Shown here one piece after another: positions 7,584-58,856 of a stretch of DNA of 64,000 nucleotides. The notes under the pieces are model-generated. The model worked only from the letters and a program-made list of their open reading frames with translations. It made no database searches and was not told where the DNA came from. Each line of letters opens with the position of its first letter. Position 1 is the stretch's first letter. The DNA lies in the NCBI RefSeq assembly GCF_003073375.1, contig NZ_CP029002.1, positions 2,156,001 through 2,220,000 of the forward strand, given 5' to 3'. Both the position numbers and the translations under genes were made by a program. The DNA comes from Lysinibacillus sp. 2017 (GTDB lineage Bacteria; Bacillota; Bacilli; Bacillales_A; Planococcaceae).

Positions 7584-8348
7584 TTAAATTGATTCGCGAA
7601 TTGTTAACCAATCATAAAATGGCACTGGACGTTTGGATGGAGCGACTTCACTTTCGATTGCTGTTGGTGGGATAAACCATTTTTTATATGCCCCAAGTGT
7701 TACTGCTTTAAAGCTACTATGAACTGTTAATACACCCGTTTGAATACGTACTAATAACTCCCTAATTATCCACTTTGCACGGTCAAAGTCTTTTGCGTTT
7801 TCAATCGGTAATTGAACAATTGCTTCTTCTAATTGGTTTACTAATGTTTCGTTAATCGGCCAATCTGTGTAAATAGCTATTAATTTTTCATGCCATAGCG
7901 TTTTCGTTACTATTAATTTATTACTACTAAAAGATGATTGAAAGAAAAGAGATTGGGCTTCATCTTTTGGTTGTGGAATGCTTGGTGCTGTGGTTTCTTC
8001 CGCTTTTACTCGTTCAGACATTTTCGATGGGACAAAAGGACAAATAACATAAATATTAGCACCTTTTATGCCATTCATTTTCGTTTGCGCGATTTTTTCT
8101 AACACGCCTATTTCCTGTAATTTTTTTACCGCGCGATACACCGTTTTCGTTGTTATTTGTAGTTTTTCTGCAATCGTTTTAGCCTTTAAATGGGCAGCAC
8201 CCGGTGTTGCGAGTGCATGCTGGCTAATAGCACGTAAAATTCGCTGCTCGGATTTCGTTAACTCCTGAAACTTCAAATGTTTTTCGACATGCTCGTCCAT
8301 TTGCTCAACGGATTGAAATGATTGGTACAATTTTAAATACTGGAACAT
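7584..8348 (-). CDS. Winged-helix DNA-binding protein
   Basis: The 254-residue protein has a winged-helix HTH at about residues 30-105 (LTKSEQRILRAISQHAL, AKTIAEKLQITTKTVYRAVK) followed by a beta wing. A poorly conserved linker and a helical C-terminal domain follow. The pattern suggests a transcriptional or replication-type regulator, but I do not recognise a named family or its targets. A strong AAAGGGGG site precedes the ATG. The gene stands alone, about 90 nt downstream of the transporter operon start, so regulation of bmrCD is possible but not shown. Confidence 0.6.
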   Translation of the reverse strand: MFQYLKLYQSFQSVEQMDEHVEKHLKFQELTKSEQRILRAISQHALATPGAAHLKAKTIAEKLQITTKTVYRAVKKLQEIGVLEKIAQTKMNGIKGANIYVICPFVPSKMSERVKAEETTAPSIPQPKDEAQSLFFQSSFSSNKLIVTKTLWHEKLIAIYTDWPINETLVNQLEEAIVQLPIENAKDFDRAKWIIRELLVRIQTGVLTVHSSFKAVTLGAYKKWFIPPTAIESEVAPSKRPVPFYDWLTIRESI

Positions 8349-15603: not shown

Positions 15604-15777
15604 GTTACCTAACTTTTATTTGGAAACGTTATTTTGTATGAAGATGTATTACTAATTTTTCGTTTTTTGTATCAATGTATAAATAATATTCATAAGAAAA
15701 AGCAACAAACTCTGTCTCATCAGTGTTTGTTGCTTTTCTTTACGTAACCAAACTTTGATTTGGGAACGTTATTTGGT
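15604..15777. repeat. Mosaic palindromic repeat, copy R1
   Basis: It contains GTTACCTAAC...TTTGGAAACGTT (15604-15640), a hairpin AAGCAACAAAC/GTTTGTTGCTT (about 15700-15735) and GTAACCAAAC...TTTGGGAACGTT (15744-15770). These modules recur at 49.9-58.9 kb. It lies downstream of the minus-strand gene at 15976. The rest of 15778-15975 shows no gene. Confidence 0.7.
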
Positions 15778-15975
15778 TAATTTATGTATACGCTATGAAT
15801 ACTTGTTCCGCTAAAGCCCCGTTAGTTTAAGTGCAATCATTCCAAATTGTAGCTACATAACCACCAGGACCCATACCGATAATTAATTAGCGAGTACAAT
15901 TTTCCTGCAGCTTGCTCCTTTATAGATTGATATTTTCATAACCACCCCAAATGGTTTTGGGACATGCTCCTAGTC

Positions 15976-47029: not shown

Positions 47030-47788
47030 TTACTCACTTTCTGGAGCTAAATGGTTTTTCAAACGATAAGAATTACCGATGATTGTTACAACCGTTGCGT
47101 GATGTAAAATGCGATCTAAAATCGCATTGGCTAACTTAGGCTCCTGAAACACTTCGTCCCAAGATTTAAAGTTAGCGTTTGTTGTAAAGATTGTGCTTCG
47201 TTTTTCATAACGCATATCGATTAACTGGAAGAAGAGTTTTGCATCCTCCGGATCAATGGGTAAATAACCAATTTCATCGATAATAAGTAACCTATATTTT
47301 GTGTAATGCTTCAAGCGGCTCTCTAGACGATTCTCTAGGCGAGCCCTTTTTAAGTTCTGAATCAAATCATGACATTTTATAAAATACGTACTTGTACGTT
47401 TTTTTGCAGCCGCAATCCCGATAGCGGAGGCTAAATGGGTCTTACCCACACCACTAGGGCCTAAAAATACGATGTTTTCATTACTCTCAATAAAACGTAA
47501 TGTAAGAAAATCATGAATCTGTTGCGGGTTGATTGACGGTTGGAAGTCGAAATCATAGTCCTTTATCTCTTTTAGATTTGGGAAGGCACCCACTTTTACC
47601 ATCGCATGAATCATATTGTGTTCACGTAAATCAATTTCATAATTTGTTAATTTAATCAACGTATCGATAAATGACATTTGATTGTGGATGCCGAAGTCCA
47701 CGACTTCATCTAAATGTGTAACCATTTGTTTTAATTTTAAATACTCTAAGTTCTTCAAAAGTTGCTGATAATTTGTTTGCTGTATCAT
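47030..47788 (-). CDS. istB: IS21-family helper ATPase IstB
   Basis: The 252-residue DnaA/DnaC-like AAA+ ATPase has Walker A FLGPSGVGKTHLA and Walker B LLIIDEIGYLP, plus the Arg-rich C-terminal region. It selects and licenses the target site for IstA. The start overlaps the istA stop by 4 nt (ATGA). It is full length for the family. Confidence 0.93.
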   Translation of the reverse strand: MIQQTNYQQLLKNLEYLKLKQMVTHLDEVVDFGIHNQMSFIDTLIKLTNYEIDLREHNMIHAMVKVGAFPNLKEIKDYDFDFQPSINPQQIHDFLTLRFIESNENIVFLGPSGVGKTHLASAIGIAAAKKRTSTYFIKCHDLIQNLKRARLENRLESRLKHYTKYRLLIIDEIGYLPIDPEDAKLFFQLIDMRYEKRSTIFTTNANFKSWDEVFQEPKLANAILDRILHHATVVTIIGNSYRLKNHLAPESE

Positions 47789-49071
47789 GTGTCATACACC
47801 TCTCCAATAGCTTTTAGATTGTTTTTCGCTAAAGTATCAATGTCTGGATAACGAGGTGCAGAAATTTGCAAGGTTTCTTTATAATCTGAAGGACGAATAT
47901 TTAATTTTCGATTCGATATAAGATGCTGTGCAATACACTCCATGTTATAATAAATCCATAATTGATCATCATGTATTTGTATCCCAACTTTTTGGCCAAT
48001 GTACTTAGTGGGGACTGAATACTGGTTGGCTTTGTAGGAGACCATACTTGATGTGTTTACTTGTACAAGCTGATGCTTGATACGGTAAGAGTTCCTTATC
48101 TTTTCTGCGGGTAGCGGAAGTAGGGAGCTCTTTTCTTTTTCTAAAGCAAATACGGGTATTTTGCCTGACCCTTGATGGAAAGATTGATTCAATCGATTCA
48201 TTAACTTTTCAATGAAATGATAGAGCTCTTCTAAGGTCAATTGACCTTGATATGCATGGATTTCATCAATAAATTTCATCTGTGTTTCTACTTTACCTTT
48301 TGTACGAGGACGCCGTGCTATACATGGTCGTACCTTAAAGTCAAAATCCTTCGCAAAAGCGGCGAACCTGCTATTTATTTTTCCTGAACACTGTTCTGTT
48401 CGTGCCACATCCATAATTGTTTTTGGGTTATCAGTTACGATCTCTTTTGGAACACCCCCAATTTTTTCGAATGCTTCGGTTAAAAATGAGAACAAAACAT
48501 CTTGTGTTTTACTCAATGTCAGAGTAAATATACGGAATCTTGAATACCCTAGAACCAGCGCACCTACGTTTACCTCTACTTTTTCACCATCACTTGTCTC
48601 AAAAGGAATGCTTTCCTTCCAATCAAACTGTGCCTGTTGACCTGGTGGTGTTTCAAATCTTGTCGTACCTTTCGGTGAGGGAATACGCATTTGATCTGTA
48701 AAATAAGCTGCGAATTCGGGTGTCTTTGCGATATAGCGACGGAATGTAGAAGCACCACATTCTAAACCGTGATTGTCTTTTAAATATTGCCAAAGTATAC
48801 GGCGGTAATAAAACACCTGCTTTGAATCCTCCGACAGTAGTGCAGCGATTACCTCATAATAATCATCTAAAATAGATGCCTTTTCTTTTGTTTCTTTTGG
48901 TGTAAATCCATTTAGGTACTTATCAACTGTACGTCGATCCACACCCATTTCTCTAGCCAACTGGCTTTTGTTAATTTTCATTTTTAAATTCTCCATTAAC
49001 TGTTTGAATTTTGGTAAGTCTGAAAGACTATTAATTTCAAAATTCGTTTGAACATCTAGCGTTATGTACAT
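47785..49071 (-). CDS. istA: IS21-family transposase IstA
   Basis: The 428-residue transposase has an N-terminal helix-turn-helix (INKSQLAREMGVDRRTVDKY) and a DDE catalytic core: Asp in QAQFDWKE, Asp in IVTDNPKT, Glu in RTKGKVETQMKF. A C-terminal SH3-like domain follows. GAGGTG lies 6 nt before the ATG at 49071; an in-frame GTG at 49080 is part of that site. All catalytic residues are present, so the element may be active. Confidence 0.93.
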   Translation of the reverse strand: MYITLDVQTNFEINSLSDLPKFKQLMENLKMKINKSQLAREMGVDRRTVDKYLNGFTPKETKEKASILDDYYEVIAALLSEDSKQVFYYRRILWQYLKDNHGLECGASTFRRYIAKTPEFAAYFTDQMRIPSPKGTTRFETPPGQQAQFDWKESIPFETSDGEKVEVNVGALVLGYSRFRIFTLTLSKTQDVLFSFLTEAFEKIGGVPKEIVTDNPKTIMDVARTEQCSGKINSRFAAFAKDFDFKVRPCIARRPRTKGKVETQMKFIDEIHAYQGQLTLEELYHFIEKLMNRLNQSFHQGSGKIPVFALEKEKSSLLPLPAEKIRNSYRIKHQLVQVNTSSMVSYKANQYSVPTKYIGQKVGIQIHDDQLWIYYNMECIAQHLISNRKLNIRPSDYKETLQISAPRYPDIDTLAKNNLKAIGEVYDT

Positions 49072-49295
49072 ACTAATCACCTCATGATTAGTATGCTAGA
49101 AAGTGAGGCAAAAGTGTACATCTTTAAGTGAGTGCGATTGTACATGAACATCGTAGCATTTGTACCCTACTTTTTAATGTATGATGTACAACATCTTCTA
49201 CTTTTCAATAATCACTGTATGCTGGGTTAATATAATTTTACCGTATTAACCCTATATTGTATTTTGATTCAAGAAAACAACATCTAATATAATGA

Positions 49296-49756
49296 TTTCC
49301 TTACACGCCTCTTCTTTTATACATTTGCATCTGAACAAAAATTTCAGCAATACAAAGCACTTTATGAGGAGTTTGGCTGGGTACATGTAGGCGGCTCACG
49401 GTTATCGACTTTACAGTATTGGTTAAATCCAAATAATAAAGATGATTCCCTGTTTTCCGATCAATCCTCTGAAAAAAATTATTTACAGCGTCTTAGCAAA
49501 ACATACGGGGCATGCGCATTCTTTTTCCTTTTTATCACATTTTGTGTATTTAAAAACTCAGCACAGTTTCTAAATATTAAAGATGCTTATTATACACCAG
49601 GGTTATGGGAACTTTTGGGGTGCATTCTTATTCGAAACACCTTCCGCCATCTTTAGATTCAGCTCTCCATGGCTAATGCTAATCTTCGGCATAGTATCTT
49701 TAAATACGTATTTTAAATATAAGGCTCTGTTAAATTTAATTGTTGTTTTTAAATAA
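49296..49756 (+). pseudogene. DUF2812 gene remnant
   Basis: An open stretch without a start reads FYTFASEQKFQQYKALYEEF then GWVHVGGSRLSTLQYWL and a membrane helix. This matches the middle of DUF2812 proteins such as the one at 14008. Near 49610 a one-base shift is needed to continue into GAFLFETPSAIFRF and the last membrane helix (LMLIFGIVSLNTYFKYKALL), ending at a TAA at 49754. The 5' half and any padR gene are missing; the IS21 element lies 130 bp upstream. Confidence 0.7.
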
Positions 49757-49927
49757 TTGGGGGAATCTGATTTATTGTGGTTTCCCATTTTGGGTATAGT
49801 AAGAAAAATATGAATTTACAACAATAAGGAATATACACTTTTATACAAGATAGAGAACACTTCCAACAAGCAAAATACAATTGTATCAACCATTTGAGCC
49901 ATCTGTATTAAATATGGTATAAAAAAT

Positions 49928-50031
49928 GTTCACAAGAAAAAGCACGAAACGCTGTTAAATCAACGTTTGTGCCTTTTTAAACTGTCCCCAAACTTTCATT
50001 TGGGAACGTTTATTAGGTTTGTATTGTATAC
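49928..50031. repeat. Mosaic palindromic repeat, copy R2
   Basis: GTTCACAAG is followed by the hairpin AAAAAGCACGAAACG/CGTTTGTGCCTTTTT (49937-49978) and CCCAAACTTTCATTTGGG with the tail AACGTTTA. It lies downstream of the minus-strand gene at 50061. 49757-49927 shows nothing. Confidence 0.7.
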
Positions 50032-50060
50032 TTTATAAATCCTTAGTACTGAATCTAATT

Positions 50061-50597
50061 TTAAAATTTGTCCGATTCAAAAAAAGGTTCAATACCTATT
50101 TCTTTTAATAAGTATTTTAGATGGCTATGTTTTTCTGCTAAATGTTTTTTGGGAATTAAAATTTCTTCTTTTACACGTTTAAAAATATTAGGGTTATGTT
50201 CAGGAAACCATTCTTCATAACTAATCCCTTTATCTTGTTCAATTTTTATTAAACAGTACACTATATTTTCAAACATATAGGGGAATTCTTTTTCTATCCG
50301 GTCGTGATATTTTAAAAGTGCATCAAGATAATCTTCGAAGCAATAATATTGATTTAAAGGATCTCTATGTACCTCCCACTCTTTGACTGGCTGAAATACC
50401 TGGCAATATCCTGTTTCCCAAGTCCCTAACATACAGGTAAATGCAACAATCGAGTATTTTCTAGTTTCAAAATCTTCGTCTGCAAAATATTTATAATATT
50501 CTTCTCTATACTTACCATAACAACCACTAGTATGATAATAGCCTACTGCAAAACCTTTCAAGCCACGTTTTGCTTGTTCGATAATGTTATTCGTCAA
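50061..50597 (-). CDS. Unknown protein, 178 residues
   Basis: This soluble protein is rich in Tyr, Phe and Glu (GYYHTSGCYGKYREEYYKYF, YCFEDYLDALLKYHDRIEKEF) with no membrane segment or motif I recognise. The start is TTG, 7 nt after GGAGGG; an ATG in that gap is out of frame and stops at once. It lies 3' to 5' beside a secreted protein gene with 120 nt between. Copy R2 follows its 3' end. Confidence 0.6.
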   Translation of the reverse strand: MTNNIIEQAKRGLKGFAVGYYHTSGCYGKYREEYYKYFADEDFETRKYSIVAFTCMLGTWETGYCQVFQPVKEWEVHRDPLNQYYCFEDYLDALLKYHDRIEKEFPYMFENIVYCLIKIEQDKGISYEEWFPEHNPNIFKRVKEEILIPKKHLAEKHSHLKYLLKEIGIEPFFESDKF

Positions 50598-50720
50598 ACT
50601 TCATCCCTCCGCCCATTTATCCTTCAAGGATATCTAATTTAACTTTATTTATAAATACATCAAGAGCAGTCACATACTTTTGGGCTGCCTTTCCATTGCA
50701 TGAAGAATCAAAACAAATCG

Positions 50721-51335
50721 TCATACTGGAGAGATTTGTCCTCCGAGTTTTGCAATAAGTTGATTGTTTTTTATTTCAAAGTTGATACGATTACCAAAGT
50801 ATATATCATCAAACAAATGTTCAGGTTGAATACCCAAAGGTTTAATATCAATTGTATATTTCTTGTCACCAATACTAACAATTGCTTTGTTTGGTGTTAT
50901 CTCGGTCTTTACGTTTTTTAATAATATGGCTATTGGGTCATCAACAGGTACCTCAACTGGCATCATACTCTGTGTTTTCTCGGATTTTTGCTGTTGCATT
51001 TGAAACACATGAACTTCACGTTCTAAAACACCAGTACCAGTACCTTTAGTCAAAATTATGACAAGCTCTTTCTTTCCATCTTGACTGATATCCTCATAGA
51101 TAATCTCAGGAGACCAAGTAGGACTTGTTGTGTTTATCCAATAAGGTTTTGAAAAGAGGCTACCTTGAAAATCAATTTTAAAATCTGTATATAATCCATT
51201 CATCTTTTTTGCATAAATTGTAACGCCTACTTTATCAGACTTAGCAATTTCATCATAGTTATTTGTCGTAGCTATCGCCTTCGATAAAACAGCAAAAAGA
51301 GAAATGGCAATAATTAAAATAAGTATTTTTTTCAT
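50721..51335 (-). CDS. Exported protein, unknown function
   Basis: The 204-residue protein has a signal peptide (MKKILILIIAISLFAVLSKA) and a beta-rich body with SQDGKKELVIIL, a Ca-loop-like D-x-D/N-G pattern. The ATG at 51335 follows GAGGTG by 7 nt; the earlier in-frame ATG at 51350 has none. Family not recognised. Confidence 0.62.
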   Translation of the reverse strand: MKKILILIIAISLFAVLSKAIATTNNYDEIAKSDKVGVTIYAKKMNGLYTDFKIDFQGSLFSKPYWINTTSPTWSPEIIYEDISQDGKKELVIILTKGTGTGVLEREVHVFQMQQQKSEKTQSMMPVEVPVDDPIAILLKNVKTEITPNKAIVSIGDKKYTIDIKPLGIQPEHLFDDIYFGNRINFEIKNNQLIAKLGGQISPV

Positions 51336-51413
51336 AAGAAAACACCTCATTTTAGTGTTCTCAAAATTTCACTGTTTATTACACTAAATTGCTACGTTAG
51401 TTGAGGTAAAAAC

Positions 51414-51647
51414 ATTCCCAAAGCGTCGTTTGGTAACATTTCATGCCATTCAGAATAAGTGGATCGAACAGTCCTCTTTAAAATAATTTCTCACAGCGTC
51501 TCAGAGCGTTATTTTCTATAAAAACAGCGACAAACACTGTGAAATCAGTGTTTGTCGCTGTTTGAAATGTTCCCAAGCTTGAAGTGACTCCTAATAGTTA
51601 GACACGGTTATTGGTTACCTAACTTTGATTTGGTAACGTTATTTGGA
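51414..51647. repeat. Mosaic palindromic repeat, copy R3
   Basis: It starts ATTCCCAAAGCG-TCG-TTTGGTAAC. It then has a perfect 18-bp hairpin AAACAGCGACAAACACTG with its complement (51522-51563), GTTCCCAAGC, an IS3-like end TGAAGTGACTCCTAATAG (51580-51597) and GGTTACCTAAC...TTTGGTAACGTT. It separates the exported protein gene from the methyltransferase gene. Confidence 0.78.
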
Positions 51648-51673
51648 TAACTCTGCATAAAAGTTGAAGTGAG

Positions 51674-52390
51674 TTATTTTATACTATGAAAAATAAAAGA
51701 TTTTGTTTTTGAAGTTGCTTGATTAAATTCCCAATCTCCATAAACTTGAATCCGTGAAAACCCTGCTTTTTTTAGTGATTCATAAATTGCTTCCTGTGTT
51801 CTAAATTTCAATTGCATTTTTTCATGAATAACTACTTCTCCAGTATGTTTTCTTTTCACCGTTTCATAAAAAGTAAAAACATCGTCTACTAATCCTTCAT
51901 ATTGTGTCCAAATTTCAAGTGGCTCACCATTCAATAAATCTGTTGCTATATCCGGTGTCGTATCTTTTTCCCACTCTTCCCACACTTTTTCTAATGGATT
52001 ACGAGTATCGAAAATAAAATGGCCTCCAGGTTTTAACGCTCGAAAAGCATCTGTAACAACATTTTCCCAGCTTTTCTCTGTAAGAAATACTTGTGCAACA
52101 TTCGCAGTCATAATTATTGTTTCATATGTATTGGTTTGTAGATTTGAACTATCACCAACTATCCATGTCACTTCATCAGAATATTGCTTATTTTTCGCAT
52201 ATTTAATTGCTTCTTCATTTGGGTCAATTGCTGTAATTTGATAGTTTGCTTTCGCAAAATGAGTTGTTAATCTCCCTGTCCCACAGCCTAAATCGGCTAT
52301 AGTCTTTACATTAATCTTCTTCAATAATGTTAAAAAAAATTCATCGTCTTTTCCCCAACCATTTACTTGGTCATAAACTAGTGGAATCAA
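51674..52390 (-). CDS. Class I SAM-dependent methyltransferase
   Basis: The 238-residue methyltransferase has motif I IADLGCGTGRLTTHFA (about residues 30-45), the acidic AIDPNEEAI and the later ALKPGGHFIFDTRNP. It would methylate a small molecule; the substrate is not evident. The start is TTG with AGG 7 nt upstream. It is flanked on both sides by copies of the mosaic repeat (R3 and R4). Confidence 0.82.
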   Translation of the reverse strand: MIPLVYDQVNGWGKDDEFFLTLLKKINVKTIADLGCGTGRLTTHFAKANYQITAIDPNEEAIKYAKNKQYSDEVTWIVGDSSNLQTNTYETIIMTANVAQVFLTEKSWENVVTDAFRALKPGGHFIFDTRNPLEKVWEEWEKDTTPDIATDLLNGEPLEIWTQYEGLVDDVFTFYETVKRKHTGEVVIHEKMQLKFRTQEAIYESLKKAGFSRIQVYGDWEFNQATSKTKSFIFHSIK

Positions 52391-52530
52391 TCATTTACCT
52401 ACTTTCTAAATGTTACTTATTAGTCCCTTAAAATGAAGTGTTCTTATCTTCCCATACGACATTGTAGAACCTGTATTTTCTCTATTCAATTATAACAAAT
52501 TATGGATTTTTCACCTCGTTAAATATTAAA

Positions 52531-52710
52531 GTTATCAAAGCGACGTTTGGTAACCTAATTGAGGTAAAAAGCAACCAAGACGGTTTATAAGTCTTAGCTG
52601 CTGGTTCGAACGTTCCCAAGCTTTTATTGAACTGCACCCCATTTGTTAGACACATCTAACAAGGAGGTGCAGTTCACATTTGGGAACGTTTTTTGTATAC
52701 AGATGTATTA
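52531..52710. repeat. Mosaic palindromic repeat, copy R4, with mini-IS3 insert
   Basis: It starts GTTATCAAAGCG-ACG-TTTGGTAAC, includes a hairpin near 52570-52606, then GTTCCCAAGC, a 49-bp palindromic insert (52628-52676) and CATTTGGGAACGTT. Its tail TATACAGATGTATTA (52696-52710) contains the stop codon of the next gene. Confidence 0.78.
52628..52676. mobile_element. 49-bp IS3-type paired-end element
   Basis: Two inverted ends, TGAACTGCACC...TTGTTAGA and TCTAACAA...GGTGCAGTTCA, lie almost back to back with 4 nt between. They resemble terminal repeats of IS3-family (IS150 group) elements without any transposase, i.e. a minimal MITE-like relic. Confidence 0.6.
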
Positions 52711-53451
52711 TTTGAAATACCAATTCTGTGCATTTATGTAGAGAATCTTATCGATCTCTTTATCATCAAATAGTTCTTGAACTAGTGTAATGTCGGTATC
52801 ACTAAAAGGTCGTCTTGCACGTGTTGAAGGTAAATCTGTTCCAAACATTAATGCATCTGGATTTACTTTGTAAATCAATTCTAACGCATTTTTCACATTA
52901 AGCTCGACACGCCCAAAACCTGTTGCCTTCACACGAACACCTTTATCCACTAATTTGAGTAAATGTGGTAAGCCTTCTTCTGATAAGCCTAAATGGTCAA
53001 TTGAAACTGCTGGTAACGTTTCAATTGTTGCTGCAATGTCAGGTAATTCTTTTGAATCAATGTATAATTCGCTATGCCAGCCAACTAAATCATATACACG
53101 TCTTGCAAAGTAATCTAATTTTGATAAATCTTCTGAGCCACCTCGTTTAATATTAAATCGAAGCGCTTTAACTCCGTTATTATGTAAATGAATAATTTCT
53201 TCATCCGACACGCTATATGGTAATTGTGTGACACCACAAAACGTTGGCCCCATTTCTTTTAAAGCTTTTAATAAATAATTCTGATCAAAGCCTTGAAATG
53301 ATCCTGAAACAATTGCACCACCTTGAACGTTCAGATGCGCTGTATCTTGTTCGTAATCGTCTACCACATAGCTTGGTGGTATATACCCCTGATTTTCTTT
53401 AATGGGAAAATCAAAGTCAATAATATGGAAATGTGCATCAAAAATTTTCAT
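52708..53451 (-). CDS. Amidohydrolase-type metal-dependent hydrolase
   Basis: The 247-residue TIM-barrel hydrolase of the amidohydrolase-2 type has the N-terminal metal ligands in FDAHFHI, a central His in VSIDHLG and the catalytic Asp in ALMFGTDLPS. It is short for the family but all ligands are present. The reaction cannot be named. It is framed by repeat copies R4 and R5. Confidence 0.8.
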   Translation of the reverse strand: MKIFDAHFHIIDFDFPIKENQGYIPPSYVVDDYEQDTAHLNVQGGAIVSGSFQGFDQNYLLKALKEMGPTFCGVTQLPYSVSDEEIIHLHNNGVKALRFNIKRGGSEDLSKLDYFARRVYDLVGWHSELYIDSKELPDIAATIETLPAVSIDHLGLSEEGLPHLLKLVDKGVRVKATGFGRVELNVKNALELIYKVNPDALMFGTDLPSTRARRPFSDTDITLVQELFDDKEIDKILYINAQNWYFK

Positions 53452-53525
53452 CGTTAAGCCTCCATCGTCGAAATTATGTTACACAAATATAATTCTAGAT
53501 AAATATCATCAATACCTTCTAGATA

Positions 53526-53692
53526 GTTCCCAAAGCATAGTTTGGGCACTTATCGTTCACAAGCAGCCAAAATACTCCCTATTCAATTGAATAGGGGGTA
53601 TTGGTTCCCTAAGGTTTATTGAAGTGCCCCCTAAAAGTTAGACACGTTTATTGGTTACCTAACTTTGATTTGGGAACGTTTATTTGAATAAT
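53526..53692. repeat. Mosaic palindromic repeat, copy R5
   Basis: GTTCCCAAAGC...TTTGGGCAC leads into GTTCACAAGCAG, the palindrome CCCTATTCAATTGAATAGGG (53577-53596), GGTTCCCTAAG, an IS3-like end TGAAGTGCCCCCTAAAAG (53620-53637) and GGTTACCTAAC...TTTGGGAACGTTTA. Confidence 0.8.
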
Positions 53693-53832
53693 CAATGTAT
53701 GTAAATATTGGTTTAGTGTATTACTGATTTAATTAATCCCTAACATTTTTGTGATATTCAGAGGGGTTTAGTTTCGGAAATATATTTCGGAATAATTAAA
53801 TAATATATAATTATAAAGAAGGGGGTGAGTTT

Positions 53833-54315
53833 TTGAAGAGATGGACTTGGCTTATCATTATAGGAGTTCTTATTTCAGGTTACATATATAATATTAGTTC
53901 AGCTAAATATAGGGAATCTAGTGTATCTGAAGTATTCAAAATTGTTGAATCAGATTATTCGAAAGAGCTGTATACTACTGGAACGATTAATTATGTTTCC
54001 GAAGATATTACAGAAAACAAAAAAGCTACACTTTCAACAGAAATGATAGCCAATTTACTGAATCAATTAGAAAACACAAAGGTAACAGGTATTAAACAAA
54101 AAGATTTAAACGCTTTAACTGAACTTAATTACTATATTATTGACTTAGAATCGACGGTTGCGGATAATCTTATACTTTTTGTTAGCCAAGATGAAAATAC
54201 TGGAAATAGTATTTTAGAAGTATTCGCTATTGATAAGAAATTAGCAGATAAATATCTCATGCGTGACAAAGAAGTTTTCAATTTAATAGCAGAATTAATA
54301 AAACAAGCCCATTAA
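53833..54315 (+). CDS. Membrane-anchored hypothetical protein
   Basis: The 160-residue protein has an N-terminal helix (WTWLIIIGVLISGYIYNI) and an extracytoplasmic remainder with no recognised domain. The start is TTG, 6 nt after GGGGGTGA. It is one of only two plus-strand genes in the 50-58.8 kb run and is bordered by R5 and R6. Confidence 0.58.
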   Translation: MKRWTWLIIIGVLISGYIYNISSAKYRESSVSEVFKIVESDYSKELYTTGTINYVSEDITENKKATLSTEMIANLLNQLENTKVTGIKQKDLNALTELNYYIIDLESTVADNLILFVSQDENTGNSILEVFAIDKKLADKYLMRDKEVFNLIAELIKQAH

Positions 54316-54320
54316 TTAAA

Positions 54321-54432
54321 GTTTCATTTGGAGAATTACTGTTCATAAACAGTCGAAACACCCCCTATTCAATTGAATAGAGGGTGTTGGCTCCCATAGT
54401 GTCATTTGGGAACGTTATTTGTATAGAGGTGT
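54321..54432. repeat. Mosaic palindromic repeat, copy R6
   Basis: GTTCATAAACAG is followed by the palindrome ACACCCCCTATTCAATTG (54358-54375) and its complement, GGCTCCCATAG and TCATTTGGGAACGTT with the tail ATTTGTATAGAGGTGTATA. This 75-bp unit is shared with R5 and R8. Confidence 0.78.
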
Positions 54433-54522
54433 ATAGCTTATGCTCGGTTAAATTAGGCAAATAAACTAATAAACTTTTCGCTATATACATCTATTGCAAT
54501 CATTGCATTCAATTAAGGTAAT

Positions 54523-54804
54523 TTATTTTTTTTTTAAATCGAAAAGTACAGGTGCTATATTTAATAAAATAGAAACAATTGTCAAAAACCAAAATGCCCT
54601 AGACATACCTGGTACTACATCTGATAAAGCTGCCCAATCCTCCACTTTTATCCACGTATTTAGATAACTGTAATCAGCACAAACTGTTAATGCTGTAAAT
54701 GATAACCCCATTGCCATCGCAAGTTTGTAATCTTTGCCTGTTGCATACATATAAAGGTTAATAAAAGTTGCTATTATTGCGATAAGACCTAATATGACCC
54801 ACAT
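54523..54804 (-). CDS. Small three-helix membrane protein
   Basis: The 93-residue protein has three hydrophobic segments and a KKK tail (MWVILGLIAIIATFINLYMY, GLSFTALTVCADYSYL, FWFLTIVSILLNIAPVLF). The family is unassigned. It is flanked by R6 and R7. Confidence 0.6.
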   Translation of the reverse strand: MWVILGLIAIIATFINLYMYATGKDYKLAMAMGLSFTALTVCADYSYLNTWIKVEDWAALSDVVPGMSRAFWFLTIVSILLNIAPVLFDLKKK

Positions 54805-54861
54805 AATGATGCCCCCATTAAACTTTCAATTTTCAATATAGACATAAAATGGAATAATAAA

Positions 54862-54960
54862 GTTCCCTAAGCGTCGTTGAAGTGACCCCTAAAAGTTAGA
54901 CATGGTTATTGGTTACCTAACTTGCATTTGGGAACGTTTTATTATATGGGCATGTATATT
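54862..54960. repeat. Mosaic palindromic repeat, copy R7
   Basis: GTTCCCTAAGCGTCG joins directly to an IS3-like end TGAAGTGACCCCTAAAAG (54878-54895), then GGTTACCTAAC...TTTGGGAACGTT and a GCATGTATATT tail. The central hairpin module is absent, so this is a short version. Confidence 0.78.
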
Positions 54961-55001
54961 TATGATTACAGTTATATCAGTGTAGTATGTCAATGAAGCA
55001 T

Positions 55002-55652
55002 TTATTTTTTATTAATTGTAATTTGAGTAGTTTCTAGTCCTAATCGTTTTTTTAATTCTTCGGATACAGTAAATGAAATAGTTGAACCCTTTTCTACATC
55101 TACAAATTTATGATGAATAGCAGTAACAACTGTGCCATCCGTTACATAGGTTTCAGAAGGATTGGAAGTCATTTTTAAATGGTCTATATAATTCCCACTT
55201 ATTTGCCCTTGCATATAAATTTCATTTGGGAAAATAGGGTAGGCTGATTGTCTTTCTATCAAAGAAATTTCAATCGTATTTTCTTGTATTTCCACTATTC
55301 CGTTTGTCGGAACAGATACTCCGTTAATTTCTAATTGATAATCCCATAACTTTATTGCTAAATCTTTTAATTGGGTGTCACTATAATCTTCAATAAGGTC
55401 ATCAATCAATTGCTTATAATACTCAGCTTCTTCTTTTTTGTAATTGAGGTCCGTTTCCATACTATTCAAAGCAGATGATAATTCCTTATTTTGTAATTCT
55501 AATTCGTTAGTTTGAAGAGTTGTATCTTCCGAAAGTTGGGCTGAATCGTTCACTTCCTCAATTTTGTCACTATTTGTAGAGTTATCCTCACTGTTATTTG
55601 AGCAAGCAACGAGAATGAACATAAGGCTGAAACATACTATAATTCTTTTCAA
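55002..55652 (-). CDS. Lipoprotein with coiled coil
   Basis: The protein of about 216 residues has a lipobox (MFILVAC), an Asn/Ser/Glu-rich spacer, a Leu/Glu-rich coiled coil (about residues 45-85, TNELELQNKELSSALNSMET) and a beta-rich C-terminal domain. The TTG at 55652 lies about 8 nt after GAGGTG; the GTG at 55661 overlaps that site. Family not recognised. Confidence 0.6.
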   Translation of the reverse strand: MKRIIVCFSLMFILVACSNNSEDNSTNSDKIEEVNDSAQLSEDTTLQTNELELQNKELSSALNSMETDLNYKKEEAEYYKQLIDDLIEDYSDTQLKDLAIKLWDYQLEINGVSVPTNGIVEIQENTIEISLIERQSAYPIFPNEIYMQGQISGNYIDHLKMTSNPSETYVTDGTVVTAIHHKFVDVEKGSTISFTVSEELKKRLGLETTQITINKK

Positions 55653-55717
55653 TTCCCCCACACCTCATAACTAATTTTTACTAATTTTAACAATTAAATT
55701 ACATCGTAGCAAACATA

Positions 55718-55850
55718 ATTCCTAAAGCAGAGCTTGGAGACGTATCGTACACACGCAGTTTAAAACACCCCCTTATCCAATTGAATAAGGGGGTGTTGGT
55801 TCCCTAAGAGTCATTTGGGAACGTTATTTGTATTCATTTTGTATATTTTA
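55718..55850. repeat. Mosaic palindromic repeat, copy R8
   Basis: ATTCCTAAAGC is followed by GTACACACGCAG, the palindrome AACACCCCCTTAT/ATAAGGGGGTGTT (55764-55797), GGTTCCCTAAG and TCATTTGGGAACGTT. Same unit as R5 and R6. Confidence 0.78.
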
Positions 55851-55872
55851 CTTATCGGCTTAAAAAATAGGA

Positions 55873-56436
55873 TTATTTAACAATACCGATACTATCAAGT
55901 GGATAGAATCTAATATTGGTTTTTCCAAATACCTTTTCCATTGGTACTAATCCCACACTAGCATATCTACTATCAAGACTATTTCGGCGATTATCACCTA
56001 AAACAAATAAATAGCCCTCTGGAATCGTTGAGTAATCCGTTGCAGACTGTAATGTAAAATCTTCTGTTAGTAGACTATTATCTAACAGTTGTTTTTTATA
56101 TACGTCTAAATATGCCTCTTCAATCGCTTCATCGTTAATATAAAGTGTGTCGTTCTCATATGAAATATGGTCTCCTGGCAATCCTATTACCCGTTTAATA
56201 TATGTCTCTCCATTAGGAGCTTCGAATACAATTACATCAAATCTTTCAATACCGGAAATTTTCATACCGATTATATTTAATAAAACGATATCGCCATCTT
56301 CATACGTTGGCATCATCGAAGCACCGTTTACTACTGCAGGTGACACTATAAATATAATAACGGCAATCGTAATTATACACGTTATGACAGTAGACTTAAT
56401 CCACTCTAAAAATTCTTTTATCTTAGCGTTTTTCAA
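55873..56436 (-). CDS. Type I signal peptidase
   Basis: The 187-residue signal peptidase has one N-terminal membrane helix, catalytic Ser40 in NGASMMPTYEDGD and Lys81 in ETYIKRVIGLPGD, and the box E motif LGDNRRNSLDSR. It cleaves Sec signal peptides on the outer membrane face. The TTG at 56436 lies 8 nt after AAAGGAG; the in-frame ATGs at 56460 and 56442 are upstream of, or too close to, that site. It is the second gene of a pair with a CPBP protease. It is probably an accessory SipS/T-type enzyme, as bacilli often carry several. Confidence 0.85.
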   Translation of the reverse strand: MKNAKIKEFLEWIKSTVITCIITIAVIIFIVSPAVVNGASMMPTYEDGDIVLLNIIGMKISGIERFDVIVFEAPNGETYIKRVIGLPGDHISYENDTLYINDEAIEEAYLDVYKKQLLDNSLLTEDFTLQSATDYSTIPEGYLFVLGDNRRNSLDSRYASVGLVPMEKVFGKTNIRFYPLDSIGIVK

Positions 56437-56489
56437 AAACATCACTCCTTTAGTTATCATAAAATTAATAATATTGGATGAGTTATAAG

Positions 56490-57146
56490 TTAGTAGAAGA
56501 GCGATACTAACAAGTTATATAAAGAGTGGATAACGATTACCGACCAAAGAGAACCGCTTTTCTTATACACATAACCGAATATAACGCTCAATATAAAAGC
56601 TGTTAATGAAGCAGTTAAAATATAAGGAAATTCGAAAAGCCCTTTATAAAACCAAATAGGAAAATGAATGGATGCAAAAAGTAAAGATGTAATCGCATTA
56701 GCTATCCAAAATTTAAAAGAATTCATCAGTTTTTTTAATAAAAAACCTCTAAAGACAATTTCTTCAGTAATCCCGACTAATAATACAGTATTTAGCAATT
56801 CGTTAAACCCTATTTGAAAATCAAGGTTATTATGTAAAATAGTGAAATTTAATATTATGAAGTAAGATATGAAAACCAACGATACATAAAATGTCCATTT
56901 TAAACCATTTCTAAAGTTATGACGTAACCCTAAATATGAAAATGGAACCGCTTTTTCCATAACTTTAACTAATATTAAAACTGGAATTATCCAAATAACT
57001 ACTTTAATAACGGCTGATGATATAGCTCTCGGAACAGAATCCATCAAATCTAAATATTGAACTAGCCATAACTCTCTGATACACCATAGGGCAAAAAATG
57101 CTATGAAGTATGCCCAAATATAATTCTTATTTATTTTTAAATCCAT
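56490..57146 (-). CDS. CPBP (CAAX-type) intramembrane metalloprotease
   Basis: The 218-residue protein has about seven helices and the CPBP motifs: Glu-Glu and Arg in GITEEIVFRGFLLKKL, His in ASIHFPIW, and a final IVIHSLYNLL. These enzymes are bacterial relatives of Rce1; several protect against self-made bacteriocins or process peptides. GGAGG lies 6 nt before the ATG at 57146. It sits 53 nt before the signal peptidase gene in the same direction, so the two may act on the same exported substrate; no such peptide gene is visible. Confidence 0.82.
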   Translation of the reverse strand: MDLKINKNYIWAYFIAFFALWCIRELWLVQYLDLMDSVPRAISSAVIKVVIWIIPVLILVKVMEKAVPFSYLGLRHNFRNGLKWTFYVSLVFISYFIILNFTILHNNLDFQIGFNELLNTVLLVGITEEIVFRGFLLKKLMNSFKFWIANAITSLLFASIHFPIWFYKGLFEFPYILTASLTAFILSVIFGYVYKKSGSLWSVIVIHSLYNLLVSLFY

Positions 57147-57289
57147 CAAACCCCTCCCTTTTTTCTCCTTCAAGAATCCTACTGAACTAAACCAATAGTA
57201 TCGCTTTGTAAAATACCATTAATTTACTTGTACGAATGAAATTAATTAAAAGTTTCAAAAAAGGAATAATCTATAAATGATTTCAACAA

Positions 57290-57418
57290 GTTCCCAAAGC
57301 GACGTTTGGTAACTTTTCAATGAGATTTTTTTATACGTTGCAGAGCGTTATTTTCTATAAAAAACAGCGACAAATACTGTTGAATCGGTGTTTATCGCTG
57401 TTTGGAATGTTCCCCAAG
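57290..57418. repeat. Mosaic palindromic repeat, copy R9
   Basis: GTTCCCAAAGCG-ACG-TTTGGTAAC is followed by CAGAGCGTTATTTTCTATAA, shared with R3, and the imperfect hairpin AACAGCGACAAATACTG (57363-57402), ending GTTCCCCAAGC. A further half-unit CCTTCGTTTGGTTAC lies at 57514-57528. The whole 57147-57579 gap holds no gene. Confidence 0.78.
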
Positions 57419-57579
57419 CCCCTCTTTCTATTTTTTATTGTTGTCTAATAATACTTAACGGTAAATTGCGGGAAAGGTTTCAAATATAAACACTTCTTCC
57501 ACTCCAAACCTTCGTTTGGTTACATTTCATAAAAGAATGATATTCAATAATATACCTAGATTTTTGAACTAGACAAAAG

Positions 57580-58194
57580 TTACTTCTCCTTTTTGTCGGT
57601 CCATAAAACTTTATATAAAAATGCGAGTTCATATTCTTCAATACCTGGGGGTAGGTCTCCATTTTCGCCCCCAACAGTACGCAGGCTGTTTTTAGTAGTA
57701 CCTAGCCACGCTGCTATATAAATTGGTTTATCTTTTTCTAAAGTAACTTTTTCGCCAATTAGCTTACCAAAAGAGTGACTCGTCATGTTATATGAATAAA
57801 ACTTTGAAGCAAGCCCAGAAGGTATACCATTTAGCAGTTTTAAAGAATGATCTTCGCCACTAATGTCACTTATTCCAAAAGAAATTAAGCTGTCTTTATA
57901 TTTTGTTTCGATTGCACCCCAAGTCTTTAGTAACTCCTCTTTAAACTTACCCTTTTCATATACCTCCACTGAAAATTGCAAATCATCGTCTTCTTTCAAA
58001 GTGCCATTCAGCTTGAAATATTCAATTTGCGCCACACCTGTTTTACTAATGAGCAATCTTTCTTTTTCATTCATGTTGTATGACTCAATCGTTATTTTCG
58101 TATTTGATGGAGGTTTTTCTTTTTCTACATCTGTGCAGCCTGTTAACAACAAAGTGAAAATTATAAACAAGCAGTAGCTCTTAAAATGCCGCAT
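57580..58194 (-). CDS. Lipoprotein, unknown function
   Basis: The 204-residue exported lipoprotein has lipobox TLLLTGC and a beta-rich body (FSVEVYEKGKFKEELLKTWG). Such proteins of about 200 residues are frequent in bacilli, without known function. The ATG at 58194 has GGAGG 6 nt upstream; the ATG at 58200 abuts that site. R9 follows its 3' end. Confidence 0.65.
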   Translation of the reverse strand: MRHFKSYCLFIIFTLLLTGCTDVEKEKPPSNTKITIESYNMNEKERLLISKTGVAQIEYFKLNGTLKEDDDLQFSVEVYEKGKFKEELLKTWGAIETKYKDSLISFGISDISGEDHSLKLLNGIPSGLASKFYSYNMTSHSFGKLIGEKVTLEKDKPIYIAAWLGTTKNSLRTVGGENGDLPPGIEEYELAFLYKVLWTDKKEK

Positions 58195-58419
58195 TTTCAT
58201 CCTCCAATTAATATATTTTAGTAAATTATCCCAAATAAAGGGTATTTGTACAATAATAACGACGCAATAAAATGTCCGTTTGTGAAATAAAATTCCTGCA
58301 TACTAACATTACGGGTTAGATAGAAGGTTTCATCGCCATATTTATCGAAGTTAATTTCTATAATGCAAAAGCGGAAATGTTAAAAATGATTTTAATTATA
58401 ATTAGTGATGGGGGATCGA

Positions 58420-58752
58420 ATGAAAAAACTATTGATAATAGCAGTAGTAATTGTAATACTTGCTCCGTTTTGTACAATAGAAATAAAAAAACAATTATAT
58501 GAAAAGAGAGTAGAAGATTATTTAATTGAAAATACGTTTTATCAGAAAGATGAAACTGAATCTATTAAAGCGAAATGGCATTTTGCAGGTCTTCCGAGTT
58601 ATTGGGTAAATGTTATCTATTCTGACGAGCCAAATGTTGTTTATACTTATTTCGCTCATAATAAGGGTAAAGTAGGTCAATTTGAATATTATTCAATTGA
58701 TGGAACGAACCTTTCGACAGAACAATTAAAGCATTTCGAGAAATATAAATAA
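58420..58752 (+). CDS. DUF3139 protein
   Basis: The 110-residue protein has an N-terminal membrane helix and the DUF3139 pattern (KRVEDYLIENTFYQKDETES, YSDEPNVVYTYF). The function is unknown. The ATG at 58420 lies 5 nt after GGGGG. It is one of two plus-strand genes among the repeat-separated singles. Confidence 0.7.
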   Translation: MKKLLIIAVVIVILAPFCTIEIKKQLYEKRVEDYLIENTFYQKDETESIKAKWHFAGLPSYWVNVIYSDEPNVVYTYFAHNKGKVGQFEYYSIDGTNLSTEQLKHFEKYK

Positions 58753-58815
58753 ACATAAATTTATGTAGCTTCTTTGATTAGATAAAGCGAAACGCCCCAA
58801 AATGGAAATATTTCT

Positions 58816-58856
58816 AAAAACACAAACGCTGTTAACTCAACGGTTGTGTTTTTTAG
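58816..58856 (+). terminator. Terminator / repeat module R10
   Basis: The hairpin AAAAACACAAACG...CGGTTGTGTTTTTT has a CTGTTAACTCAA loop close to that of R2 and ends in T residues. It lies 63 nt after the DUF3139 stop codon. Confidence 0.75.

Follow-up and report, generated by a model that had tools for sequence, protein, structure and literature searches.

In the genome of Lysinibacillus sp. 2017, an array of short, mostly single-gene units separated by members of one repeat family lies at 49.9-58.9 kb of a 64,000-nucleotide stretch (bases 2156001-2220000 of the 3.74-Mb single-contig genome, G000; this whole stretch is termed the window). We consider it likely that the array belongs to a gene-capture system of the Planococcaceae that is both integron-like and dif-module-like, and that would be served in trans by a recombinase encoded outside the window. 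By the criteria that define integrons it falls outside that class: an IntI is missing, and an attC-like fold is predicted for some copies only. We infer the activity of the recombinase and of the cassettes from sequence comparison. The comparison set consisted of 20 stretches of the same genome and 38 from relatives, all picked for clustered matches; after two overlapping stretches were dropped, 57 loci remained, including the window (1.0 Mb in all). Mobility comparisons were made across species, with one genome per species, and occurrence was surveyed in 200 genomes of the family and 398 genomes of the class.

The initial annotation described the repeat at 49.9-58.9 kb as a single mosaic palindrome with exchangeable central hairpins. 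Its ends do occur in the window above shuffle counts: the right end TTTGGGAACGTT (at most one mismatch) matches 12 times versus 0.5 expected from shuffles, and the left end GTTCCCAAAGCG (at most two mismatches) 11 times versus 3.0 expected, a number reached in 0 of 100 shuffles. The palindrome, however, is in fact two separate simple sites, L and R, which flank an interchangeable hairpin body. The genome-wide search for the repeat ends that had been proposed returned 45 exact copies of TTTGGGAACGTT (none for the reversed control), gathered in tight same-strand clusters, for instance at 1.682-1.687 Mb (seven copies in 5 kb) and 2.469-2.473 Mb (four). No Rfam family was matched in the window at gathering score.

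The basic unit is a 24-bp simple site, composed of half-site GTTCCCAAA, a 6-bp spacer and half-site TTTGGGAAC. Across the 57 loci a spacer of 6 accounts for 495 strand hits, versus 38, 90 and 8 for spacers of 5, 7 and 8, and one mononucleotide shuffle held no spacer-6 site; since the loci were chosen for holding the motif, these counts show fixed spacing and not genome-wide enrichment. The 248 spacer-6 sites were divided by spacer into 155 R sites (CTTTNA, GTTTCA or GTGTCA), 85 L sites (GCGNNG) and 8 unclassed sites, where the L class takes in loosely matching sites, at least one of them within an apparent gene (window 16688). The outer halves hardly vary, the inner ones frequently take the variant form TTTGGTAAC / GTTACCTAA, and a T-rich tail of about 33 bp is conserved 3' of the R sites. 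The half-sites of the system differ from those of dif. The repeats measure 54-224 bp, and their bodies hold stretches that we take to resemble IS3-family insertion sequence (IS) ends (TGAAGTGACCCC..GTTAGACA; window 51575-51613, 52632-52677, 53619-53645 and 54876-54900), which are perhaps scars of IS excision that replaced inner half-sites. One body carries both IS-end-like stretches back to back as a hairpin.

The usual order of an array is a leader with an R site, one or more genes, an L site, a short hairpin body (<350 bp), an R site and the next gene. The copies are non-random in strand and gene position, as the initial annotation had indicated: 185 of the 194 neighbouring site pairs in the 57 loci lie on the same strand, with 9 flips (154 versus 3 with strict spacers), and the longest open reading frame (ORF) points toward the leader in 90 of 108 cassettes and away in 18, another 6 of the 114 cassettes having no ORF of 60 amino acids. 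Cassettes have a median length of 722 bp (118 cassettes). Steps of 350-4000 bp from an R site lead to an L site in 56 cases, to the next R site in 51 and to an unclassed site in 4. Many arrays begin with a leader of about 230 bp that bears the R site. Because the genes mostly face the leader, a leader promoter of the Pc type would not read them. Long leader matches number 46, of which 15 are in loci of the same genome; the leader of one such locus (L013:7509-7842) is 95% identical over about 330 bp to that of the window (49723-50053), the shared stretch running from GGCTCTGTTAAA to about 46 bp beyond the site, which suggests that the leaders are themselves copied somehow. The comparison of L008 with L036 for empty leader sites gave none with clear edges, these being blurred by about 22-30% divergence and other inserted DNA. 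In both loci, which are from two species, a palindrome like AGTTTACATAA-N6-TTATGTAAACT (L008 ~7719-7747) adjoins the same conserved gene; we take this palindrome to resemble the XerD arm of dif.

Recurrence between loci was assessed with a cassette search (at least 80% identity and 60% coverage, different locus), which gave 27 matches, reduced to 20 after removing repeats; some of the 20 pairs lie within one genome, and some share a cassette family. The left edge of identity falls at a site in 15 of the 20 and the right edge in 13 (binomial p 1e-8 and 8e-7, rough values, with limits fixed after the distances were seen and a rough chance model). The repeats are therefore not seen to move alone only: gene-plus-site units recur in other surroundings, across species and genera, with edges mostly at sites. 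In pair A (L049 of G032 and L051 of G120, two species), identity is 99.5% over 439 bp, and the two sequences diverge outside a leader R site at one end and shortly after a single site at the other. Pair B, from two genera (G045 and G016; 96.4%), ends within TTCCCAAA of the L site, the bodies being different; pair C (G120 and G160, also different genera; 98.0%) ends within GTTACCAA of the L site; and pair D (the present genome and G092; 94.8%) has a less sharp right edge. Pairs B to D show the L site, too, as an apparent break point. The spacers differ between copies of the same cassette in different places. Together, the strand, orientation and recurrence tests support the earlier suggestion of an integron-like cassette layout with a different capture mechanism.

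A search for an enzyme, likewise suggested at the outset, revealed a candidate tyrosine recombinase outside the window, among 12 PF00589 matches in the genome:

G000:C1:1865943-1866893 (L009:9944-10894), main recombinase, 317 amino acids

The protein matches PF00589 at 2.7e-41 and contains GIRVSEL, KGNKER, HKLRHT, LGHSS and TTQIYTH, which we take to be the catalytic motifs. It belongs to the Xer group, with XerA (5hxy) and XerD (1a0p) as its closest solved relatives by sequence, and it shares the protein family of XerC, XerD and XerA, with matches to TIGR02224 and TIGR02225. It differs from XerC and XerD in that it scores below both equivalog cut-offs (224 of 335 and 219 of 330 bits, respectively) and in its palindromic, many-copy sites; the archaeal XerA cut-off is also missed. 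An IntI identity was rejected (TIGR02249, 88 bits versus a cut-off of 265). Its identity to one of the other Xer-like proteins encoded in the genome (L022) is 28%. In the family survey, orthologues (E<=1e-60), which are single-copy, occur in 91 of 200 genomes and the site pattern, which in some genomes also counts the promoter palindrome described below, in 81; both are present in 74 genomes and neither in 102, with the recombinase alone in 17 and sites alone in 7. All 44 genomes with at least four sites possess the recombinase. Outside the family, one of the 398 class genomes codes for a homologue at E<=1e-85 (54% identity), and the palindrome was not found in its 3.9-kb locus. A degenerate tyrosine-recombinase gene (L009:6726-7625), situated some 2.3 kb upstream of the main one, was rejected as an obligatory partner, being near the main recombinase in two of six further loci (G032 and G127, and not in the four other 12-kb loci).

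Directly upstream of the main recombinase in Lysinibacillus sp. 2017 is a perfect palindrome, AACGTTCCCAAA-TATAAA-TTTGGGAACGTT. The general form TTCCCAAA-N6-TTTGGGAA was found upstream of the recombinase in 20/20 and a further 36/40 loci, two of the 36 having one changed base; these 60 loci are part of the 91 with the recombinase. It persists where protein identity is as low as about 52-56%, and paired changes of the outer arm bases (AACG/CGTT, AATG/CATT, AAGG/CCTT) are seen in many loci. Its position just upstream of a TATAAT box in the present genome suggests that it is probably also an operator. In genus g14 the palindrome stands 61-63 bp before the start in 10 of 12 loci (G127 and nine others, all empty). 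In the remaining two it is 513 bp (G102) and 836 bp (G184) from the recombinase, owing to an insert between site copies: a full left site copy lies on one side and a right half-site copy beside the recombinase, and what the edges have in common with the empty target is limited to some 17-26 bp of the site. Each insert holds a minus-strand ORF of 73 amino acids, the G184 insert being the longer. Of all the observations, these filled and empty promoter sites speak most strongly for the view that the recombinase uses its own site as a cassette port.

From these features the following mechanism can be proposed. One chromosomal Xer-family recombinase would bind the 12-bp half-site AACGTTCCCAAA / TTTGGGAACGTT and recombine 12-6-12 sites. 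A cassette would extend from one R half-site to the next and would consist mostly of one small gene with its 3' end usually toward the leader; the R site of the leader, and in two genomes the promoter palindrome, would take in cassettes as attI does. Cassettes would then accumulate in same-strand arrays, possibly with an L site at the end, separated by interchangeable hairpin bodies that are probably terminators. At the three junctions studied in most detail (pair A, G102 and G184) the left side keeps the 6-bp spacer of the target and the right side has that of the cassette, which suggests exchange at the border of spacer and right half, with no need for matching spacers. R-to-R units may thus have moved at this border, with secondary exchange at L sites, as the break points of pairs B to D suggest. 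Cutting by the main recombinase and the formation of circles are likewise steps that we infer. A bolder formulation, whose chances we judge to be even, is that of an integron counterpart of independent evolutionary origin, centred on the Planococcaceae and with copies in a few other Bacillota: one chromosomal Xer-derived integrase, whose promoter palindrome is both operator and cassette port, would serve in trans more than 12 leader platforms in this genome and let cassettes cross genera by an exchange that ignores spacer identity.

Several observations weigh against a recombinase-driven capture of R-to-R units. An all-against-all comparison of the loci is favorable in part only: of its 165 matches of at least 330 bp, transposons and ordinary homology among them, 31 show an end no more than 60 bp from a right end in each of the two loci, and in 2 this is true of both ends. 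Edges lie away from sites in 5 (left) and 7 (right) of the 20 cassette pairs, and in pairs B and C, less cleanly in D, the gene is common and the body different, so that the R-to-R unit is not the sole one. No sharp left boundary was found among 32 leaders compared. The site pattern is missing from 17 of the 91 genomes with the recombinase, and the recombinase from 7 of the 81 with sites; moreover, the genomes are related, so p-values for co-occurrence overstate and the counts are descriptive only. The palindrome is absent from 4 of 40 promoters, all of genus g18, one of which (G036) has four sites. The G102 and G184 inserts are 87% identical over 410 bp and may represent one ancestral event.

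Double-stranded exchange of the dif-module type, in which gene units with outer halves alternate with body units with inner halves and XerC/XerD, or XerD with the new recombinase, act at matching spacers, is possible though rather doubtful. The frequent R-gene-L-body-R order would fit it, as would the identity in pairs B and C, which spans the gene unit only, outer half to outer half. Inner halves (TTTGGTAAC, GTTACCTAA) that tend to be unlike the outer ones would fit as well, this being the kind of asymmetry by which C and D modules are defined in Acinetobacter (PMC13141974). R-to-R junctions without an L site are, however, about as frequent as those with one (51 versus 56), there is a distinct recombinase with a palindrome of its own, and the differing spacers of the same cassette in different places argue against XerC/XerD exchange at matching spacers. 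We regard as unlikely an attC-like, single-strand recombination, whereby L-body-R would fold as R''-L''-VTS-L'-R' (VTS, variable terminal structure), with the central spacer unpaired and one strand exchanged. The arrangement resembles that of attC. Pairing in 27 double copies extends to 7.7 of 9 positions of the outer halves and 1.0 of 6 positions of the spacers, both of which served as selection criteria, and in one copy (L002) the inner halves are swapped for a perfect hairpin with the fold kept. The inner halves, on which no selection was made, pair at 5.9 of 9 positions versus 5.5 when permuted (permutation p 0.03), a weak covariation; the predicted folds show an outer stem (at least 6 pairs) in 15 of the 27 and an inner stem (at least 7 pairs) in 8, and many junctions consist of a single site or half-site only.

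That the repeats are terminators or insulators only, and that arrays differ through homologous recombination after DNA uptake or conjugation, is very improbable. Bodies and leaders do look terminator-like by eye, most genes end toward them, and repeats of 54-224 bp supply homology; yet identity in the pairs read stops within or beside simple sites, the promoter insert shares just the short edge sequence noted above with its empty target, and terminators need neither one orientation nor a fixed 6-bp spacing. The idea was rejected as a full account and kept as a side function that the hairpin bodies probably have. Spread in the manner of miniature inverted-repeat transposable elements or driven by IS elements, with the copies as remnants of elements inserting in palindromes, deserves equally little credence. 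The stretches inside several bodies that we presume to be IS3-end-like would favor it, together with the occurrence of leaders at many places, one pair being 95% identical as described; against it stand the leaders without a sharp left end, the recurring units, which hold different genes and mostly end at sites, and the co-occurrence with a tyrosine recombinase.

The array of the window, read as a product of the proposed gene-capture system, is composed as follows:

49811..50044, plus strand, leader at the array start (nhmmer 4.8e-49 to the leader model; 95% identical leader in L013)
49984..50007, plus, R site of the leader, GTCCCCAAA-CTTTCA-TTTGGGAAC
50008..51413, minus, cassette 1, ORFs 50061-50597 and 50721-51350, both minus, without Pfam match
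51414..51437, plus, L site ATTCCCAAA-GCGTCG-TTTGGTAAC
51438..51613, no strand, long body with hairpin and a stretch that we take to be IS3-end-like
51614..51637, plus, R site GTTACCTAA-CTTTGA-TTTGGTAAC
51638..52530, minus, cassette 2, methyltransferase ORF 51674-52390
52531..52554, plus, L site GTTATCAAA-GCGACG-TTTGGTAAC
52555..52690, no strand, body with hairpins, an IS-end-like palindrome in place of the R left half, and R half-site TTTGGGAACGTT at 52679-52690
52688..53525, minus, cassette 3, amidohydrolase-family ORF 52708-53451, stop codon inside the conserved tail
53526..53549, plus, L-like site GTTCCCAAA-GCATAG-TTTGGGCAC (classed automatically as a weak R site on the opposite strand)
53654..53677, plus, R site GTTACCTAA-CTTTGA-TTTGGGAAC
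53678..54389, plus, cassette 4, ORF 53833-54315, plus, the sole reversed gene, without Pfam match
54390..54413, plus, R site GCTCCCATA-GTGTCA-TTTGGGAAC
54414..54861, minus, cassette 5, ORF 54523-54804, without Pfam match
54862..54885, plus, L site GTTCCCTAA-GCGTCG, inner half IS-end-like
54912..54935, plus, R site GTTACCTAA-CTTGCA-TTTGGGAAC
54936..55717, minus, cassette 6, ORF 55002-55661, lipoprotein-like (by eye), without Pfam match
55718..55741, plus, degenerate L-like site ATTCCTAAA-GCAGAG-CTTGGAGAC (by eye)
55799..55822, plus, R site GTTCCCTAA-GAGTCA-TTTGGGAAC
55823..57289, minus, cassette 7, signal peptidase ORF 55873-56460 and CAAX-protease ORF 56490-57173
57290..57313, plus, terminal L site GTTCCCAAA-GCGACG-TTTGGTAAC, followed by a body without R site
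15604..15804, plus, small array remnant, R site at 15604 and partial leader 15674-15804 with R site at 15744

The leader model was built from 12 leaders of this genome, the window leader among them; the latter consists of arm-like TTTTATnCA / TGCATAAAA motifs, a bidirectional terminator-like hairpin and the R site. Cassette 5 includes a 328-bp stretch 82% identical to another array of the genome (L013), and cassette 7 a 735-bp stretch 79% identical to G032 (L045). Most details of the initial annotation stand: the genes between the copies are mostly on the minus strand and the gene at 53833 on the plus strand, the gene at 52708 has its stop codon inside the conserved tail past the right half-site, and the copies at 15.6 kb correspond to the R sites and partial leader listed above. 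The copy at 49984 is real and of a different kind, as it is the R site of the leader; that at 40.5 kb is present as a degenerate site pair, and the supposed fragment at 61.76 kb amounts to a single degenerate half-site, both judged by eye. Shortly before the leader, at 47785-49080, is a large minus-strand ORF that we take to be IS21-type-transposase-like. The methyltransferase, amidohydrolase, signal peptidase, CAAX protease and unmatched proteins of the window may be compared with other arrays, in which 14 of 20 hand-picked cassette ORFs have Pfam matches (two of them under the curated threshold), including GNAT, NUDIX, methyltransferase, chloramphenicol acetyltransferase (CAT) and RDD families. 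A CAT-family gene is seen as a cassette at L037:12895-13557 (G092).

Like integrons, the system has single-gene cassettes in same-strand arrays with a site 3' of most genes, and a platform site beside some recombinase genes (upstream palindrome in 56 of 60 loci, occupied in 2); its arrays without an adjoining recombinase recall clusters of attC sites lacking integrases (CALINs), and its accessory genes include GNAT, NUDIX and CAT. Unlike integrons, it has a Xer-like recombinase, 12-6-12 inverted-repeat sites, many leaders per genome, genes directed toward the leader, cassettes that in the arrays studied lie away from the recombinase palindrome, and a Planococcaceae-like host family. Integrons are reported to be extremely rare in Firmicutes, where IntegronFinder 2.0 is reported to have found one complete integron and a few CALINs (PMC9024848). 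With the dif (pdif) modules of Acinetobacter the system shares genes flanked by Xer-type sites whose spacers are 6 bp long, half-sites of two types and often alternating units; it differs in its separate Xer-like enzyme with its own palindrome, its chromosomal same-strand arrays with a leader, and spacers that vary between unit copies. That report describes dif modules as a system found in Acinetobacter alone (PMC13141974). No dif site was found in the present genome by one pattern with up to 3 mismatches. The strand-biased elements of Vibrio also carry a 6-bp block that comes to lie at their far end, the 6 bp of the target staying in place (PMC9345347); strand exchange there is attributed to enzymes that the elements themselves encode, whereas here single passenger genes in arrays would be moved in trans.

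Sites and leaders also occur beyond the chromosomes compared. On the Solibacillus silvestris plasmid pSSIL1, an R and an L site enclose a pair of genes for a P-type ATPase and ArsR, and leader or site copies are found on plasmids of Lysinibacillus, Listeria innocua and Exiguobacterium and on contigs of Paenibacillus and Bacillus massiliglaciei. A leader adjoins bcrABC on the Listeria innocua plasmid (L135:5918-6167), and a partial leader adjoins mef(F)/msr(G) on the Exiguobacterium plasmid (L136:3980-4144). A strict-pattern scan of wider genome contigs gave two loci, near records possibly being left out. One R-type site is located on a virus contig of IMG/VR (L145:5085-5107).

No description of the present system was found in the literature as judged by titles and abstract openings of the papers listed, with bioRxiv outside the scope. 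In a large family of soil and water bacteria, a system that captures genes by means of a recombinase of its own would represent a second answer to the problem that integrons solve, and would account for the clustering of accessory genes in these genomes. Its simple palindromic sites could help to test how a chromosome-housekeeping enzyme turns into a gene-capture enzyme, and, since some leaders are carried by plasmids, close to biocide, metal and macrolide genes, the system may bear on the spread of such genes.

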